From assembly GCF_001428305.1 (NCBI RefSeq), contig NZ_LMRZ01000007.1:1-64000 (forward strand): a stretch of DNA of 64,000 bases. The letters are read 5' to 3'. Position numbers and translations under genes: made by a program. Each line of letters opens with the position of its first letter. Position 1 is the first letter of the stretch. The stretch is from Janibacter sp. Soil728 (GTDB lineage: Bacteria > Actinomycetota > Actinomycetes > Actinomycetales > Dermatophilaceae). This document shows positions 19,988-41,659 of the stretch, one piece after another. The notes under the pieces are model-generated. The model did no database searches and was not told where the DNA came from. It saw only the letters and a program-made list of their open reading frames with translations.

Positions 19988-22900
19988 ATGTTCACCTTCG
20001 CAGTCCACGATGCGCCCGTGACCTCCCCTTCGTCCTTGTTGCCGGCGCTCCTCGCTGGTGACCGGGCCACCGATCCGCGCACCCTCGTCGACATCTTCAT
20101 GAGCGTCGTGTCGGCCAACCCGGACGCACCGGCCGTCGACAGCGGACGCGAAAAGCTCACCTACGCCGAGCTGGGCGAGGCGGCGTCGGCGGTGGCCGAG
20201 CAGCTGGCGGAGCTCGGGATCGGCCCGGGGGACAAGGTCGGGGTGCGCATCCGCTCCGGCTCCACCGACCTCTATGTCGCGATCATCGGGATCCTCGTCG
20301 CGGGCGCGGCGTACGTCCCCGTCGACGCGGACGACCCCGACGAGCGGGCGCGGGTGGTCTTCGAGGAGTCCGGTGCCGCGGCCGTCATCGGCAATGACCT
20401 GGTCATCTCGACCACCGTTGCAGGCCAAGGGCGCTCGCCGATCGAGCCGGCGCATCCCGGGACGAGTGACGACGCCTGGGTGATCTTCACGTCCGGGTCC
20501 ACCGGCAAGCCGAAGGGGGTGGCCGTCACCCACCGCAACGCGGCCGCCTTCGTCGACGCCGAGTCGCAGATGTTTCTCGTCGACGACCCGATCGCCCCGG
20601 GGGACCGGGTGATGGCCGGGCTGTCCGTCGCCTTCGACGCCAGCTGCGAGGAGATGTGGCTGGCCTGGGCCTACGGCGCCTGTCTCGTGCCCGCACCCCG
20701 CTCGCTCGTGCGCTCGGGCGTCGACGTCGGCCCGTGGCTGCTGGCCAACGAGATCACCATCGTCTCGACCGTGCCGACCCTCGTCTCGCTGTGGCCGCCG
20801 AGCTCGCTGGAGCGGGTCCGGTTGCTCATCATGGGTGGCGAGGCCTGCCCGGCCGAGCTGGCCGCGCGCCTCCAGGCGCCGGGCCGCGAGGTGTGGAACA
20901 CCTACGGCCCCACCGAGGCCACAGTCGTCGCCTGCGGCGCGATGCTCGACGGCAGCGACCCCGTGCGCATCGGCCTGCCGCTCGCCGGCTGGGACCTCGC
21001 CGTCGTCGACGCGCAGGGGCACCCCGTGGCAGAAGGGGAGTCCGGTGAGCTGATCATCGGTGGCGTCGGCCTGGCCCGCTACCTCGACCCGGCCAAGGAC
21101 GCCGAGAAGTACGCCGCCATGCCCACCCTCGGCTGGGAGCGCGCCTACCGCTCCGGCGACGTGGTGCGCAACGACCCGCTCGGGCTCGTCTTCGCCGGCC
21201 GCGCCGACGACCAGATCAAGCTCGGCGGCCGACGGATCGAGCTCGGCGAGATCGACGAGCAGCTGCTGCGCCTGCCGGGCGTCGTCTCCGCAGCGGCCGC
21301 CGTCCGCTCCACCCGGGCGGGCAACAAGCTGCTCGTCGGGTACCTGACGACCGACGCGCAGTACGACGCTGCGCGGGCCAGGGACCTGCTGCGCGAGCGC
21401 ATGCCCGCCGCGCTCGTGCCGCGCCTGGCAGTCGTCGACGAGCTGCCCACCCGCACCTCGGGCAAGGTCGACCGCGACGCCCTCCCGTGGCCGCTGCCCA
21501 CCTCCGACGACACCCCGGCGACCGGGGAGCTCGGCCAGAGCGAGCAGTGGATCGCGGGACTGTGGGCAGAGATCATCGGCGCCCAGGTGAGCGACCCCTC
21601 GGTCGACTTCTTCGACCTCGGGGGAGGCTCGCTGACTGCCGCGCAGGTCGTCAGCCGCCTGCGCGAGCGCAACCCCGAGACGACCGTCGGTGACCTCTAC
21701 GCGCACCCGACCCTCGGCGACCTCGCGGCCTGGCTCGACGAGTCCGCGGCGGCGTCGACGATGGTCCTCACCGACCGCAAGGTCCGACCCATCCGTCCAC
21801 GGACCCAGGCGGCCCAGCTCGCGGCGATGGTCCCCCTTCGCGCTCTGGCGGGGATGCGGTGGGTGGCGTGGCTGCTGCTGGGCTCGACCATCGGGCACGT
21901 CGTCCTGCCGTGGCTGCCGGCCTTCCCCCTCTGGCTCGTCGCGATCACCACGGCGCTCTTCCTCTCCGCCCCAGGCCGGATGGCGCTCGCCGCGCTCCTG
22001 GCGCGGCTGGTCCTGCGCGGCGTGAGGCCCGGCTCCCACCCGCGTGGGGGCAAGATCCACTTGCGGTTGTGGATGGCGGGGCGCATCCAGGACGAGCTGG
22101 CCGCGGCTTCGCTGTCCGGCGCGGTCTGGTTCCGTTGGTACGCAACGCTCCTCGGAGCCAAGATCGGCGAAGGGGTGGATCTGCACGCCCTCCCGCCGGT
22201 CACCGGATGGCTGGACGTGGGGCCGGGGGCCTCGATCGAGCCGGAGGTGGACCTGCTCGGTCACTGGATCGACGGGGACCGCGTGCACGTCGGCCCGATC
22301 ACCATCGGAGCCGCCGCCAGGGTCGGCGCCCGCAGCACCATCTCCCCGGGGTCGGTCATCGGTCCGGGGGCGGAGGTGGCCCCCGGCTCGCACGTCATGG
22401 GTGCCGTGACGCAGGACGAGTTCTGGTCGGGCGCCCCTGCGGAGCCGCATGGCCGGGCCCGCGGACCGTGGTCGCAGCAGCAGGCGCCGGCCCCCAGGGC
22501 ATGGCTCCTCGGCTACGCGATGCTCGCTCTGCTCATCGCCTCCCTGCCCGGGCTGGCGGCCCTCGTCGGTGCGGCCGTGCTCTGGCCGGCCGTGTCCGGG
22601 ACGCAGAGTCTCTGGGAGGCCGTGGTCGCCGCCCTTGCCTGGCTCCCGCTCTCTGCACTCGTCGGCTACCTCGTCCTCGCGCTGCTCGTCCTCGCACTCA
22701 CCCGGTTGCTCGCCACGCTCGTCCAGCCCGGTCACTACCCGGTGCGCTCGGCAGCCGGTCTGGCCATCTGGGGCACGGTCCGCCTGCTCGACGAGGCGCG
22801 CGACTGGCTCTTCCCCATCTACTCCAGCGCCTTCACCCCGATCTGGCTGCGGCTGCTGGGTGCTCGCGTCGGCGTCGGTGTCGAGGCCTCGACGGTGATG

Positions 22901-23890
22901 CTCATCCCCAAGCTCGTGCGCGTGGGCGACCACGCCTTCCTCGCCGACGACACGATGATCGGTAGCTATGAGCTCGGCGGTGGGTGGATCCGCGTCGAGC
23001 GGGTCAAGGTCGGCAAGCGCTCCTTCGTCGGCAACTCCGGGATGCTCGCGCCCGGCCGCCGGGTACCCAAGCGCTCGCTCGTGGCCGTGCTCTCCGCGGC
23101 CCCCGGGCGCGGGGTGGCCAAGGCCGGCCAGTCCTACATCGGCTCGCCACCGCGCAAGCTGCGGCGCGACGCAGCTGACCAGGACTCCAGCCGCACCTAT
23201 GACCCGCCGAGGCGGCTGAAGGTCCTGCGGGCGCTCGTCGAGCTCTGTCGGGTCATCCCGCTGTGGTGCTCGGTCGCGCTCAACGTCGCCGTGGGGGTCG
23301 CGCTGCTGGCGCTTCTCGACCGATCAGTCTGGGCCGCAGTGCTGCTCGCCGGCCCGGTGATGATCGTCGGCAGCCACGTGGCAGCCGGGATCACCCTCGT
23401 GGCCAAGTGGGTCCTCGTCGGCCGCCACCGCGTGGGGGAGCACGAGCTGTGGACTCCCTTCGTCTGGCGCAACGAGCTCGCCGACACCTTCACCGAGATG
23501 CTCGCGGCGCCGTGGTTCGCCCGGATCACCGCCGGCACGCCGGCGCTCAACGCCTGGCTGCGCCTCATGGGCAGCACGGTCGGCGCGGGCGTCTGGTGCG
23601 ACACCTACTGGCTCCCCGAGAGCGACCTCGTCCGGCTCGGCGACGGCGCGACCGTCAACCACGGCTGCGTCGTGCAGACCCACCTCTTCCACGACCGTGT
23701 GCTGAGCATGGACACGGTCGTCCTCGAGGCCGGGGCGACGCTCGGACCCAACAGCGTCATCCTCCCTTCGTCCAGCATCGGGAAGAATGCGACGGTCGGC
23801 CCGGCATCACTGGTGATGCGCGGCGAAGGCGTACCGTCGCGCACACGATGGATCGGCAACCCGATCGGACCGTGGGAGGAGCGCGAGTGA
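19988..23890 (+). CDS. Polylysine-synthetase-like single-module NRPS (A-T-transmembrane tandem domains)
   Basis: The protein has about 1300 residues. An adenylation domain (about 30-520) has FTSGSTGKPKG, the A4 segment FDASCEEMW, YGPTEAT and the terminal Lys in RTSGKVDRDALP. A thiolation domain follows with the phosphopantetheine Ser in DFFDLGGGSL (about 546). There is no ordinary condensation or thioesterase domain. The rest is three repeated units of membrane helices plus hexapeptide-repeat (LbH) folds, matching the terminal region of epsilon-polylysine synthetase (Pls). Aligning with GrsA gives the tentative pocket code D-A-E-S-I-G-T-V-V-K, close to lysine-activating modules. The start at 19988 (ATG) is uncertain; GTG 20018 is possible. 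Downstream are a coupled M1 peptidase and a PPTase. Confidence 0.88.
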   Translation: MFTFAVHDAPVTSPSSLLPALLAGDRATDPRTLVDIFMSVVSANPDAPAVDSGREKLTYAELGEAASAVAEQLAELGIGPGDKVGVRIRSGSTDLYVAIIGILVAGAAYVPVDADDPDERARVVFEESGAAAVIGNDLVISTTVAGQGRSPIEPAHPGTSDDAWVIFTSGSTGKPKGVAVTHRNAAAFVDAESQMFLVDDPIAPGDRVMAGLSVAFDASCEEMWLAWAYGACLVPAPRSLVRSGVDVGPWLLANEITIVSTVPTLVSLWPPSSLERVRLLIMGGEACPAELAARLQAPGREVWNTYGPTEATVVACGAMLDGSDPVRIGLPLAGWDLAVVDAQGHPVAEGESGELIIGGVGLARYLDPAKDAEKYAAMPTLGWERAYRSGDVVRNDPLGLVFAGRADDQIKLGGRRIELGEIDEQLLRLPGVVSAAAAVRSTRAGNKLLVGYLTTDAQYDAARARDLLRERMPAALVPRLAVVDELPTRTSGKVDRDALPWPLPTSDDTPATGELGQSEQWIAGLWAEIIGAQVSDPSVDFFDLGGGSLTAAQVVSRLRERNPETTVGDLYAHPTLGDLAAWLDESAAASTMVLTDRKVRPIRPRTQAAQLAAMVPLRALAGMRWVAWLLLGSTIGHVVLPWLPAFPLWLVAITTALFLSAPGRMALAALLARLVLRGVRPGSHPRGGKIHLRLWMAGRIQDELAAASLSGAVWFRWYATLLGAKIGEGVDLHALPPVTGWLDVGPGASIEPEVDLLGHWIDGDRVHVGPITIGAAARVGARSTISPGSVIGPGAEVAPGSHVMGAVTQDEFWSGAPAEPHGRARGPWSQQQAPAPRAWLLGYAMLALLIASLPGLAALVGAAVLWPAVSGTQSLWEAVVAALAWLPLSALVGYLVLALLVLALTRLLATLVQPGHYPVRSAAGLAIWGTVRLLDEARDWLFPIYSSAFTPIWLRLLGARVGVGVEASTVMLIPKLVRVGDHAFLADDTMIGSYELGGGWIRVERVKVGKRSFVGNSGMLAPGRRVPKRSLVAVLSAAPGRGVAKAGQSYIGSPPRKLRRDAADQDSSRTYDPPRRLKVLRALVELCRVIPLWCSVALNVAVGVALLALLDRSVWAAVLLAGPVMIVGSHVAAGITLVAKWVLVGRHRVGEHELWTPFVWRNELADTFTEMLAAPWFARITAGTPALNAWLRLMGSTVGAGVWCDTYWLPESDLVRLGDGATVNHGCVVQTHLFHDRVLSMDTVVLEAGATLGPNSVILPSSSIGKNATVGPASLVMRGEGVPSRTRWIGNPIGPWEERE

Positions 23891-25197
23891 GGCGGCAGGG
23901 CACGGACGACTACGTCCCCGGGCACGGGGACGCGTCCTACGACGTGGAGCACTACGACCTGGTGCTCGACTACAAGGTCGTGGGCAACCGCCTCTCCGGG
24001 GAGGCGACCCTGACCTGCCGGGCGCTGCAACCGGTCAGCCGGGTGGAGCTGGACCTGCACTCCCTCAAGGTCGCCCGTGTGCACGTCGACGGCGCGATCG
24101 CCAAGTACACGCACCGCTTCGACCGTCTCGCCGTCACGCTCGGGCGCACGGTGCCTGAGGGCGAGGACTTCGAGGTGCGGGTCAGGTACGCCGGCACCCC
24201 CACGCAGGTGCGCAGCCGCCATCTCGGCGAGGCCGGCTGGGAGGAGCTCGAGGACGGCGTCCTCGTCGCCGCGCAGCCGCACGGGTCGCCGTCGTGGTTC
24301 CCGTGCAACGACCGGCCCGACGACAAGTCCACCTACGAGATCGCGCTCACCGTGGCGAAGGGGTACCACGTCGCCGTCGCCGGTGAGCTCGTCAGCAGCA
24401 CGACCCGCGGCAATGCCACGACCTGGACCTACCGCCAGGACGACCCGATGGCCACCTACCTCGCCACCGTCCAGATCGGCGACTACCAGGTGCTGGAGCA
24501 GAAGGGAGCGCCCGTCCCCGTCCGCGTCGTGGCACCCGCCAGCCGCCCCCGGGCCGGTTTCGAGGCGGCCTTCGGCAAGCAGCCGCAGATGCTGGCCTTC
24601 TACGTCGAGCACTTCGGGGACTACCCCTTCGCGTCGTACACGGCGGTGATCACCGACGACGACCTGGAGATCCCGCTGGAGTCGCAGGGCCTGTCGACCT
24701 TCGGCCGCAACTTCATGCGCGACGACTGGGAGAGCATCCGCCTCGTCGCCCACGAGCTGAGCCACCAGTGGTGGGGCAACTCCGTGACCCTCACGCACTG
24801 GCGTGACATCTGGCTGCACGAAGGCTTCGCCTGCTACTCCGAGTGGCTGTGGTCCGAGCACGTCGGCCTGATGAGCGTCGGCGAGCGCGCGGCGGACCAC
24901 CACGAGCGGGTGCGCACCGACGACGGCGACGAGCTGCTCCTCGGCGACCCCGGACCGGAGCTGATGTTCGACGACCGGGTCTACAAGCGCGGTGCGCTGA
25001 CGCTGCACGCGCTACGTCGCCGGATCGGTGACGACGCCTTCTTCGAGGTGCTGCGGACCTGGAGTGCCGCGCAGCGCTTTGCGAATGTCACGACGGCGAT
25101 GTTCGTCGAGCACGCGCAGGCAGTCACGGGGGAGGACCTCGGTGACCTCTTCCAGGCGTGGCTCTACGAGGTCGAGCTGCCGCCCCTGCCGGGCTGA
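23887..25197 (+). CDS. Short M1-family zinc metallopeptidase
   Basis: This 436-residue aminopeptidase N-like enzyme has the zinc site HELSHQWWGN with the third ligand Glu in LHEGFACYSEWLW. The N-terminal beta domain (DVEHYDLVLDYKVVGNRLSGEATLTCRAL) is of the M1 type. It lacks the C-terminal helical domain of full PepN (about 850 residues), as many bacterial M1 proteins do, and has no signal peptide. The GTG start overlaps the stop of the NRPS gene (GTGA), so the two are coupled. A role in degrading or trimming the product of that synthetase is inferred from this coupling and from known polylysine-degrading metallopeptidases in producers. Confidence 0.88.
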   Translation: MRRQGTDDYVPGHGDASYDVEHYDLVLDYKVVGNRLSGEATLTCRALQPVSRVELDLHSLKVARVHVDGAIAKYTHRFDRLAVTLGRTVPEGEDFEVRVRYAGTPTQVRSRHLGEAGWEELEDGVLVAAQPHGSPSWFPCNDRPDDKSTYEIALTVAKGYHVAVAGELVSSTTRGNATTWTYRQDDPMATYLATVQIGDYQVLEQKGAPVPVRVVAPASRPRAGFEAAFGKQPQMLAFYVEHFGDYPFASYTAVITDDDLEIPLESQGLSTFGRNFMRDDWESIRLVAHELSHQWWGNSVTLTHWRDIWLHEGFACYSEWLWSEHVGLMSVGERAADHHERVRTDDGDELLLGDPGPELMFDDRVYKRGALTLHALRRRIGDDAFFEVLRTWSAAQRFANVTTAMFVEHAQAVTGEDLGDLFQAWLYEVELPPLPG

Positions 25198-25817
25198 GGG
25201 ATGGTGGCGACGGCTGCGGCGAGGCCCCCGGGTGCCTCGATGTCCACGACCTGCCAGTCGGCGACCCGGATCTCGCTCATCGGCGTGCTCAGGCCCGTGC
25301 CGAGCGCCTTGAGGATCGCCTCCTTGCGGCACCACGCCGCCGCCCGCTGCATTGCCATAGGGGAATGCAAGTTTTCGCGCATTGCCATAGGGGAATGCAA
25401 GTTTTCGTGCATTGCCATAGGGGAATGCAAGTTTTCGCGCATTGCCATAGGGGAATGCGCGCGTCCGGACCCAGCCAGCCCGGGCCGGGTGGGGGCCGGC
25501 GCGGCCGGGTCCGGCTCGTCCGGGTGGAGGACGAGGGCCGGGTCCCAGCGGGCGTCGACCGCGGCGATCGACTCGACGTCGATCCCGACCGGGTCGTCGG
25601 CGACCACCGTGACGACGTGCTCGCCGCAGCGGGAGAGGCTGACGTGCGGGCTCGTCCCGTCGGGCAGACGGACCCATGGTCGGCCGTGGGTCGTCGATCC
25701 GCAGGTGGGGCAGTGGCGGCCGATGGTGACGGGGGATGACAGGTGTGCGCGCAGGGCGTCGTTCCCTTCGAGACGCTTGCTGCGCAAGCTCCCCAGGGAG
25801 CGGGCGTCGTGCCACAT
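25164..25817 (-). CDS. 4'-phosphopantetheinyl transferase (Sfp type) with in-frame repeat insertions
   Basis: The 217-residue protein would load phosphopantetheine onto carrier domains, the adjacent NRPS being the obvious client. Sfp-type motifs are present: VSLSRCGEHVV, the Mg-binding GIDVES and the catalytic WCRKEAILKALG. Between the last two, residues about 120-156 are a repeat of the 10-mer HSPMAM(R/H)ENL encoded by 30-bp tandem repeats at 25351-25458. Near the N-terminus, SLRSKRLEG is encoded by a REP-like palindrome. Both insertions keep the frame, so the gene may still be functional. The start at 25817 follows a weak GTGGAG. Its 3-prime end overlaps the M1 gene by 34 bp. Confidence 0.85.
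   Translation of the reverse strand: MWHDARSLGSLRSKRLEGNDALRAHLSSPVTIGRHCPTCGSTTHGRPWVRLPDGTSPHVSLSRCGEHVVTVVADDPVGIDVESIAAVDARWDPALVLHPDEPDPAAPAPTRPGLAGSGRAHSPMAMRENLHSPMAMHENLHSPMAMRENLHSPMAMQRAAAWCRKEAILKALGTGLSTPMSEIRVADWQVVDIEAPGGLAAAVATIPQPGRGGSSTS
25351..25458. repeat. 30-bp palindromic tandem repeat inside the PPTase gene
   Basis: There are three full copies and one 18-bp partial copy of a 30-bp unit (ATTGCCATAGGGGAATGCAA plus GTTTTCGYGC), with only one variable base. Each unit can form a small stem GCATT/AATGC around the GCCATAGGGG core. Copies abut directly with no spacers. The unit length is a multiple of three, so each adds exactly ten residues to the encoded enzyme. Confidence 0.95.
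25764..25802. repeat. REP-like palindrome copy inside PPTase N-terminus
   Basis: On the minus strand the sequence reads GCTCCCTGGGGAGCTTGCGC followed by AGCAAGCGTCTCGAAGGG. The inner GCTTGCGCAGCAAGC forms a stem. It matches the repeats at 41554-41659 and variants at 37091, 37799, 50549 and 51890, and is translated as SLGSLRSKRLEG. Confidence 0.8.
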
Positions 25818-25842: not shown

Positions 25843-27045
25843 GTGCGTGCGCTCGAGGTCTTCCGCGTCTTCCTGCTCCTCGGGCTCACCAGCTTCGGGG
25901 GGCCCGTCGCGCACCTGGGCTACTTCCGCGAGGCCTTCGTCGTGCGGCGCCAGTGGCTCACCGAGACGGCCTACGCCGACCTCGTCGCGCTCTGCCAGTT
26001 CCTCCCCGGACCGGCCTCCAGCCAGGTGGGGATGGCGATCGGGCTACGCCGTGCCGGGTACCTCGGGATGGCCGCGGCCTGGGTGGGCTTCACCCTCCCT
26101 TCGGCCCTGCTCATGCTCGGCTTCGCCCTCGGCGCGCGGGCGATCGGTGTCACCGGGGACGAAGGGTGGTTGCTGGGTCTCAAGGCCGCCGCCGTCGCCG
26201 TCGTGGCCCACGCGGTGATCGGGATGGCGCGCACGCTCGCCGTCGGGCCGCGTCGCGCCACGATCGCGGTGACCGCGCTCGCGGTCGTCCTGCTGCTCCC
26301 GTCGGCGGCCAGCCAGGTCGCCGCCATCGTCCTCGGTGCACTCGCCGGGCTGCTCTGGCTCCCGGCGGCCCCGACCACGGACGAGGAGGACGAGGCCGTC
26401 CCCGTCCGGCGACGCACCGCCCTCGCTGCCCTGACGATCTGGGTGGGGCTGCTCATCTCCCTTCCCGTCCTCGCGGCGCTCGTCCACGACCCGACGCTGG
26501 GCATCGTCGACTCCTTCTACCGGGTCGGGTCGCTCGTCTTCGGTGGCGGGCACGTGGTGCTGCCGCTGCTCGAGGCCGAGACGGTCGGCACCGGCCTGAT
26601 CGGGCACGGTGACTTCCTCGCCGGCTATGGCGCGGCGCAGGCCGTCCCCGGGCCGCTGTTCACCTTCTCCGCCTACCTCGGTGCGCTGGTGCCCGGGCAG
26701 AGCGCTCCGCTCGGGGCCCTCGTCGCGCTGCTCGCGATCTTCCTGCCATCGGCTCTGCTCGTCGTCGCCGGTCTGCCCTTCTGGCAGCGGCTGCGTCGCT
26801 CGGCCCGGGCTCGCCGCGCCCTGGCGGGGGCAGGGGCGGCGGTCGTCGGGCTCCTCGCCGCCGCGCTCTACGACCCGGTCTTCACGCAGGGCATCACGGG
26901 TGCCGGGACCATGGTCGTCGCGGCGGTCGCCCTCGTCGCGCTCGCGGTGTGGAAGGTGCCCGCCTGGGCCGTGGTCATCGGCGCCAGCGTGCTGGGCGCC
27001 GGACTTCTCCAGGTCGCGCCCATAGCACGCCTGTGGCCCCTGTGA
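25843..27045 (+). CDS. chrA: Chromate transporter family protein (ChrA)
   Basis: The 400-residue membrane protein has two homologous halves, each starting with a CHR signature: TSFGGPVAHLGYFREAFV at the N-terminus and GSLVFGGGHVVLPLLEAETVG in the middle, with QFLPGPASSQ and QAVPGPLFTF as the paired re-entrant motifs. About 10-12 hydrophobic segments are visible. ChrA proteins export chromate at the inner membrane. It starts with GTG 25 bp from the divergent PPTase start, so the promoter must overlap that gene. No chromate-sensing regulator is nearby. Confidence 0.92.
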   Translation: MRALEVFRVFLLLGLTSFGGPVAHLGYFREAFVVRRQWLTETAYADLVALCQFLPGPASSQVGMAIGLRRAGYLGMAAAWVGFTLPSALLMLGFALGARAIGVTGDEGWLLGLKAAAVAVVAHAVIGMARTLAVGPRRATIAVTALAVVLLLPSAASQVAAIVLGALAGLLWLPAAPTTDEEDEAVPVRRRTALAALTIWVGLLISLPVLAALVHDPTLGIVDSFYRVGSLVFGGGHVVLPLLEAETVGTGLIGHGDFLAGYGAAQAVPGPLFTFSAYLGALVPGQSAPLGALVALLAIFLPSALLVVAGLPFWQRLRRSARARRALAGAGAAVVGLLAAALYDPVFTQGITGAGTMVVAAVALVALAVWKVPAWAVVIGASVLGAGLLQVAPIARLWPL

Positions 27046-41558: not shown

Positions 41559-41659
41559 GGAGCTTGCGCAGCAAGCGTCTGCACGCTGGCTGAGGAGCTT
41601 GCGCAGCAAGCGTCTGCACGCTGGCTGAGGAGCTTGCGCAGCAAGCGTCTCGAAGCCTG
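41554..41659. repeat. Three tandem 35-bp REP-like palindromes
   Basis: The unit GCTGAGGAGCTTGCGCAGCA plus AGCGTCTGCACGCTG starts at 41554, 41589 and 41624; the third ends CTCGAAGCCTG instead. Each has the stem GCTTGCGCAGCAAGC. The first copy supplies the stop codon of the desaturase gene. Confidence 0.93.

Follow-up and report, generated by a model that had tools for sequence, protein, structure and literature searches.

A probable epsilon-poly-L-lysine synthetase operon in Janibacter sp. Soil728, with a phosphopantetheinyl transferase inherited alongside it in the genus

Results

Three adjoining genes for a synthetase, a peptidase and a phosphopantetheinyl transferase

The window analysed here is a stretch of 64,000 nucleotides from Janibacter sp. 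Soil728 (contig NZ_LMRZ01000007.1, positions 1 to 64,000). Its plus strand carries a gene for a pls-type NRPS of 1300 amino acids (Pls; 19988..23890), which begins with an ATG at 19988 and whose stop codon ends at 23890. The next gene on the same strand encodes an M1 zinc peptidase of 436 amino acids (23887..25197), and its start shares the four bases GTGA at 23887-23890 with the stop of pls. On the minus strand lies a gene for an Sfp-type phosphopantetheinyl transferase (PPTase; 25164..25817), convergent with the M1 gene, the 3′ ends of the two overlapping by 34 bases. We place the PPTase start at the ATG at 25817; an in-frame GTG further upstream, at 25889, is also a possible start. An initial annotation of this DNA had described a synthetase, a GTGA-coupled zinc peptidase and an oppositely oriented PPTase, and the profile matches and coordinates confirm all three genes, including the minus-strand PPTase, which matched PF01648 over the cut-off; it made no mention of the 34-base overlap or of the tandem repeat in the PPTase gene described below. 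A promoter scan of the locus returned 0 sites (0.2 expected), and one terminator-like site was found (1.0 expected).

The synthetase has the architecture of the Pls/PosA family

Profile searches gave Pls the domain order adenylation (A), carrier (T) and terminal region, without a C or a TE domain. The A domain (residues 41-499; 20108..21484, plus strand), delimited by profile matches and by alignment to 7wew_A, has the core motifs and matched TIGR01733 with 329 bits (cut-off 317.4), its AMP-binding_C part falling just under its own cut-off (21 vs 24.5 bits). The T domain (21545..21736, plus strand) was assigned from a PF00550 match at residues 520-583 and from the position of its FFDLGGGS motif, in which Ser548 is presumably the residue of phosphopantetheine attachment. 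The C-terminal polymerising region (21812..23866, plus strand; 685 residues) matched nearly the full length of the Pls/PosA model TIGR02353 over residues 609-1293, with 669.5 bits against a cut-off of 423.1, and hydropathy placed three hydrophobic regions, at residues 635-661, 838-915 and 1084-1144, that could accommodate six helices. The domain order and the Pls/PosA match agree with the A-T-transmembrane-tandem-LbH layout of the initial annotation, and the hydrophobic regions could supply its membrane segments. That annotation would have abandoned its reading had the C-terminal region resembled Pls only through generic LbH repeats; the score lies far above the Pls/PosA cut-off, and on this match we set aside a generic LbH protein.

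The adenylation pocket code is that of a polylysine synthase

By sequence, the closest solved structure is 7wew_A, an epsilon-poly-L-lysine synthase (E 8.7e-186), with which the A domain shares 63% identity. Alignment to 7wew_A identified D217, A218 and E221, the first three specificity residues (codons of D217-A218-S-C-E221 at 20636..20650, plus strand), followed by S-I-G-T-V-V, so that the pocket code DAESIGTVV agrees with 7wew_A at nine of nine residues, as read in the initial annotation; the tenth code residue is the usual lysine. The same nine-residue code was found in 110 of 110 related loci, a set that includes the window's own gene (L037) and two genes entered under two identifiers each (L024/L118 and L033/L096). 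According to the available text of PMC10522769, position 2 of the code is alanine in lysine enzymes, methionine in PosA (ornithine) and phenylalanine in PDAP/PDAB. Because the code is that of 7WEW and its second residue is alanine, lysine is likely to be the substrate in preference to ornithine or diaminobutyrate, and is our best prediction from the sequence. A non-basic substrate, which would have spoken against the initial annotation, does not agree with a code shared with a solved polylysine synthase, and the pocket code led us to set non-lysine substrates aside.

The coupled peptidase is a homologue of PldII, apparently without an export leader

The peptidase is of the short kind, consisting of the M1_N and catalytic domains, both of which matched their Pfam models over the cut-off. 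Its zinc-binding motif HELSH lies at residue 289 (24751..24765, plus strand), with Glu312 as the third ligand; an alignment of 109 loci, one of them the window's copy, kept the HExxH motif, E312 and Y366 in all 109. An M1 gene followed pls in 109 of 110 loci, the exception being L025, the sequence of which covers 5 kb only. A gap of about 0.3-2.1 kb separated the two genes in L087, L095, L097, L099 and L102.

The initial annotation had suggested comparing the peptidase with known polylysine-degrading enzymes. We made this comparison through a Streptomyces-like genome (G638), which stands in for the published PldII sequence itself. Its A domain shares 94% identity with 7wew, and its gene after pls starts in a GTGA overlap and measures 1404 bp with the stop codon; published accounts give a length of 1404 bp for pldII (PMC9223678, in excerpt) and an overlap of 4 bp for pls-pldII (PMC4361855, in excerpt). 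The peptidase of the window was 42% identical to the product of this gene over 436 amino acids. Since that gene matches the published pldII in length and overlap, we class the window peptidase, on sequence grounds, as a homologue of PldII rather than as PldII itself. The excerpted PMC9223678 presents a homology model of PldII in which one zinc sits at D44/T45 and a second at D173/K174, with T194 and E281 as active residues; the HExxH motif at position 321 of the G638 protein is at odds with these residues.

PldII of S. albulus is reported to lie outside the membrane (PMC9223678, in excerpt). By hydropathy, a crude and here the sole basis for calling a leader, a twin-arginine-like hydrophobic leader was present in each of the five canonical loci where an M1 gene adjoins pls (L183 and L188-L191), where the best 12-residue hydropathy was 1.64-2.09. 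The other 122 loci, among them that of the window (L037) and with six genes entered under two identifiers, were without such a leader, with a maximum of 1.38 and a median of 0.18; L097 reached 2.02 with an alternative start choice, its first start being far upstream. For a sixth canonical-type pls (L193), no M1 match was found in the surrounding 12 kb. The window peptidase showed no export leader by hydropathy, does not share the outside-membrane trait of PldII and is therefore probably cytosolic. On the effect of such peptidases on the polymer, published accounts conflict: repression of PldII shifted the chain length (PMC9223678, in excerpt), and a review states that inactivation of Pld and PldII was without effect on production or chain length (PMC8506220, in excerpt).

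The PPTase gene is inherited with pls in the genus

In 18 aligned PPTase sequences, D104, E106, W186, E190 and K194 were invariant; we take the Asp/Glu pair and WxxKEAxxK to be the functional motifs of an Sfp-type PPTase. Across 16 genomes of the genus, the Pls region scored over the cut-off in eight, was present as pieces at contig ends in G004 and was missing from seven. The pls-type PPTase gave a strong match in G000, G002, G004, G008, G009, G010, G011 and G012 and was absent from the seven that lack a complete pls. The G015 contig breaks off within the M1 gene, and in G004, a draft assembly, the PPTase is split over two frames. All eight genomes with this PPTase thus have pls as well, G004 in pieces, and the two are inherited together in this genus. 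All genomes but G002 (90% completeness), 15 of 16, also gave a second, more distant Sfp-like match at another place.

One genome without the module, G006, retains an N-terminal pls remnant of 178 residues with 83% identity (L138, 5839-6372). No M1 or PPTase match was found beside it in the same 14 kb, and G006 has therefore probably lost the module.

Beyond the genus, a convergent PPTase adjoined the M1 gene in 18 of 80 named loci, a count that includes a weak match in Microbacterium (L116, E 1.5e-7) and a denominator that includes two loci ending less than 500 bases from M1 (L062 and L090). The loci with a PPTase came from Nocardioides, Aeromicrobium, Ornithinimicrobium, Humibacillus, Kocuria, Arthrobacter, Microbacterium and relatives without a genus name, and none of the Nocardia, Mycobacterium and Rhodococcus loci among the 80 had one beside M1. 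A tree of 99 Pls proteins, built by a quick method, placed the window in a clade of 29 rows, 21 of them with the PPTase, L187 being counted as positive on a 41-residue match. Mapping its presence onto the tree required eight changes; the gene has therefore been lost or gained repeatedly. By title or abstract start, our literature search returned no paper on a link between a PPTase and pls.

In-frame palindromic repeats in the PPTase and in other genes

The PPTase reading frame contains four 30-bp copies of the palindromic repeat GCATTGCCATAGGGGAATGC plus spacer (25349..25458; HSPMAM...), in frame and placed between the conserved DVE and WCRKEA. The PPTases of four congeners (G002, G008, G009 and G010) are without a repeat array at this site; G012 has four HDLKEMR units there and G011 three HLPGEMR-like units. 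These congeneric arrays (L131, 5628-5735; L132, 4463-4569) are likewise in frame, tandem and species-specific. A second palindromic repeat, GCTTGCTGCGCAAGC, lies in the PPTase frame near the start (25775..25789; SLRSKRLEG). Among the congeneric PPTases (L130 and L132), it also occurs in that of G012, and G010 has two slightly differing copies of it; elsewhere in the window it forms three tandem copies at 41562-41646.

With up to three mismatches, the window palindrome matched 130 places on one strand and 122 on the opposite one, figures that may include a place twice, once per strand, as the palindrome is nearly self-complementary; the reversed pattern was found at 0. The pattern GCGCAT-NNCCNNNNGGNN-ATGCGC, with one mismatch allowed, occurred in 10 of the 16 genomes of the genus, at up to 102 places, while the controls gave 0 throughout save for one in G005, itself without a match. 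The cores differ between G011 and G004, the two genomes for which places were listed. We also inspected one linker of CydD in 16 loci (L196-L211), G005, G004 and G001 being left out after failure of the anchor. This linker has four HSPMAM units in G000, three HDLKEMR in G012, three HLPGEMR-like in G011 and two HC(P/R)TAM in G006, with other short repeats in G002 and G009 and a single HLPKEMR in G007; no array was seen by eye in G003, G008, G010, G013 or either copy of G014. Apart from these, a SelB-like gene (L042) contains two units, and L044 has in-frame palindromes in both CydD and CydC. A REP/RAYT origin was considered and set aside: a search of the organism's own genome for that transposase family, Y1_Tnp (PF01797), gave no match.

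Rickettsia palindromic elements are palindromes inserted in frame into ordinary genes. The repeats described here share this property, but they belong to an actinobacterial genus, are often tandem and have cores that differ between species at shared sites. A search by title found papers on Rickettsia, on enterobacteria and on REP/MITE in general, and none on palindromes of this genus or on actinobacterial coding palindromes.

The window Pls belongs to a widespread form outside the canonical clade

Under tight E-value limits, Pls A domains were found in 104 of 393 genomes of the class and, for the Streptomyces-like genus, in 161 of 392, and Pls-related stretches numbered at least 591. Seven Streptomyces-like genomes (G840, G700, G712, G782, G814, G758 and G610) gave two Pls A-domain matches. 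In the five of these pairs that were listed whole, one copy shared 75-87% identity with 7wew and the other 67-69%; for G840 and G700, the tree puts the first copy within the canonical clade and the second elsewhere. The canonical Streptomyces-like Pls clade has a support of 100 and sits on a long stem (0.59 changes per site). The window Pls lies outside this clade, which counts against an epsilon-polylysine reading.

Compared with pls-pldII of S. albulus (7WEW), the locus shares the domain order, the A-domain code, the carrier motif and the 4-base overlap with a homologous downstream gene. It differs in that the whole Pls is about 51% identical to near-albulus copies, that the peptidase is without the twin-arginine-like leader of canonical PldII and has IPLESQ in place of APVENQ, and that a PPTase gene lies next door. 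The low identity, the missing leader and the IPLESQ motif also count against the epsilon-polylysine reading, as do the PldII model with its other zinc positions and the failed polymer production in Corynebacterium described next. The coryneform operon, as described in the available text of PMC8117764 (Jiang et al.), is alike in combining Pls with a peptidase, in its similar codes and in its occurrence in non-filamentous actinobacteria. That text reports the pls-peptidase operon in Corynebacterium and the formation of polymer, 26-35-mers, after expression in S. coelicolor, with no polymer in C. variabile itself or in C. glutamicum expressing pls; it also lists homologues whose codes are the same or very close, among them those of Brevibacterium, Arthrobacter, Microbacterium and Dermacoccus. 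The terms 'phosphopantethein' and 'PPTase' do not occur in the portion of its main text available. Acinetobacter PosA, a poly-ornithine synthetase, comes under the same NCBI family name, TIGR02353, but has the code DMEHNGTVSK where the window has DAESIGTVVK (PMC10522769, in excerpt).

Discussion

The locus is very probably an epsilon-poly-L-lysine synthetase operon, whose product would be a positively charged, antimicrobial chain of lysines. The idea of the initial annotation that its genes make and activate a polylysine is supported by the lysine code, the PldII homology and the inheritance of the PPTase with pls in the genus. In its make-activate-trim scheme, trimming is unproven, as a peptidase without a leader by hydropathy would encounter the polymer in the cell interior. 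Operons of the pls-pldII kind have been described before, in Streptomyces and in coryneform actinobacteria, and the present operon is one more member. What goes beyond the literature examined is the co-inheritance of the PPTase with pls in the genus, the leaderless PldII homologue and the coding palindromes in the PPTase.

The family, the lysine code, the gene coupling and the catalytic residues were read from the sequence, and the co-inheritance of the PPTase from the genomes of the genus; with a predicted substrate, product and export direction, and a putative location and role for the peptidase and service of the PPTase to the Pls carrier, they suggest the following course of events. The PPTase would modify Ser548 of the carrier domain with a phosphopantetheine arm, and the A domain would activate L-lysine with ATP and load it onto the arm. 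The membrane-embedded tandem LbH region would then link each lysine through its side-chain amine to the carboxyl of the following one, repeatedly, and may also pass the growing chain outward. The coupled M1 peptidase, made together with the synthetase, would cut the polymer back to lysine; without a leader, it would most likely clear polymer that stays in or returns to the cell, in self-protection.

Among other readings, the most serious is that lysine is loaded, but that the enzyme form common in actinobacteria, instead of making a secreted antibiotic, produces lysine oligomers that are short or stay in the cell, or modifies a component of the envelope, with a cytosolic M1 enzyme recycling the product. 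This would fit the distribution of the hydrophobic leader (0 of 122 non-canonical loci, six genes of which stand under two identifiers, vs 5 of 5 canonical ones), the long stem of the canonical clade, the wide spread of the family (104 of 393 class genomes and at least 591 stretches) and the presence of both Pls types in some Streptomyces-like genomes. The leader call, however, comes from hydropathy, and the Corynebacterium enzyme yielded 26-35-mers in S. coelicolor (PMC8117764, in excerpt); on balance, we consider this reading unlikely, while giving it some weight. A polymer of another diamino acid, such as ornithine, diaminobutyrate or beta-lysine, seems to us quite improbable. It is true that the Pls/PosA model is named after both lysine and ornithine enzymes and that few pocket residues separate related enzymes (PMC10522769, in excerpt), but the window code is identical to that of 7WEW, its alanine at position 2 stands against methionine for ornithine and phenylalanine for PDAP/PDAB, and the poly-beta-lysine code DGESISVVNK differs from it (same source, in excerpt).

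The notion that the peptidase and the PPTase are chance neighbours of pls is harder still to credit. It could appeal to the low share of named loci with the PPTase beside pls, 18 of 80 (with L116 weak, and L062 and L090 cut off near M1) and to the other Sfp-like match elsewhere in the genome. Against it, the M1 gene is present in 109 of 110 loci, a finding that led us to set this reading aside; moreover, the PPTase is co-inherited with pls in the genus, is convergent in 18 of the 18 loci that have one and, within the Pls clade of the window, accompanies 21 of the 29 rows.

A broader proposal, which we regard as evenly balanced between right and wrong, concerns the repeats and the peptidase together. 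Throughout the genus there would be a class of protein-coding palindromes, short, in frame and often tandem, in loops or linkers of ordinary enzymes (PPTase, CydD and SelB). Because several species have their own palindrome core at shared sites, these cores may either be homogenised genome-wide within a species or re-insert at tolerant places. In the linked part of the proposal, Pls with a cytosolic peptidase would be the common actinobacterial form and the exported PldII of industrial Streptomyces a derived exception.

The findings place a complete polylysine operon in a further actinobacterial genus. The co-inherited PPTase may matter where such genes fail in other hosts. The difference in the leader sets the industrial Streptomyces system apart from the far commoner form and opens the native role of polylysine to testing, and the repeats in the PPTase and CydD frames indicate that small palindromes can reshape proteins.
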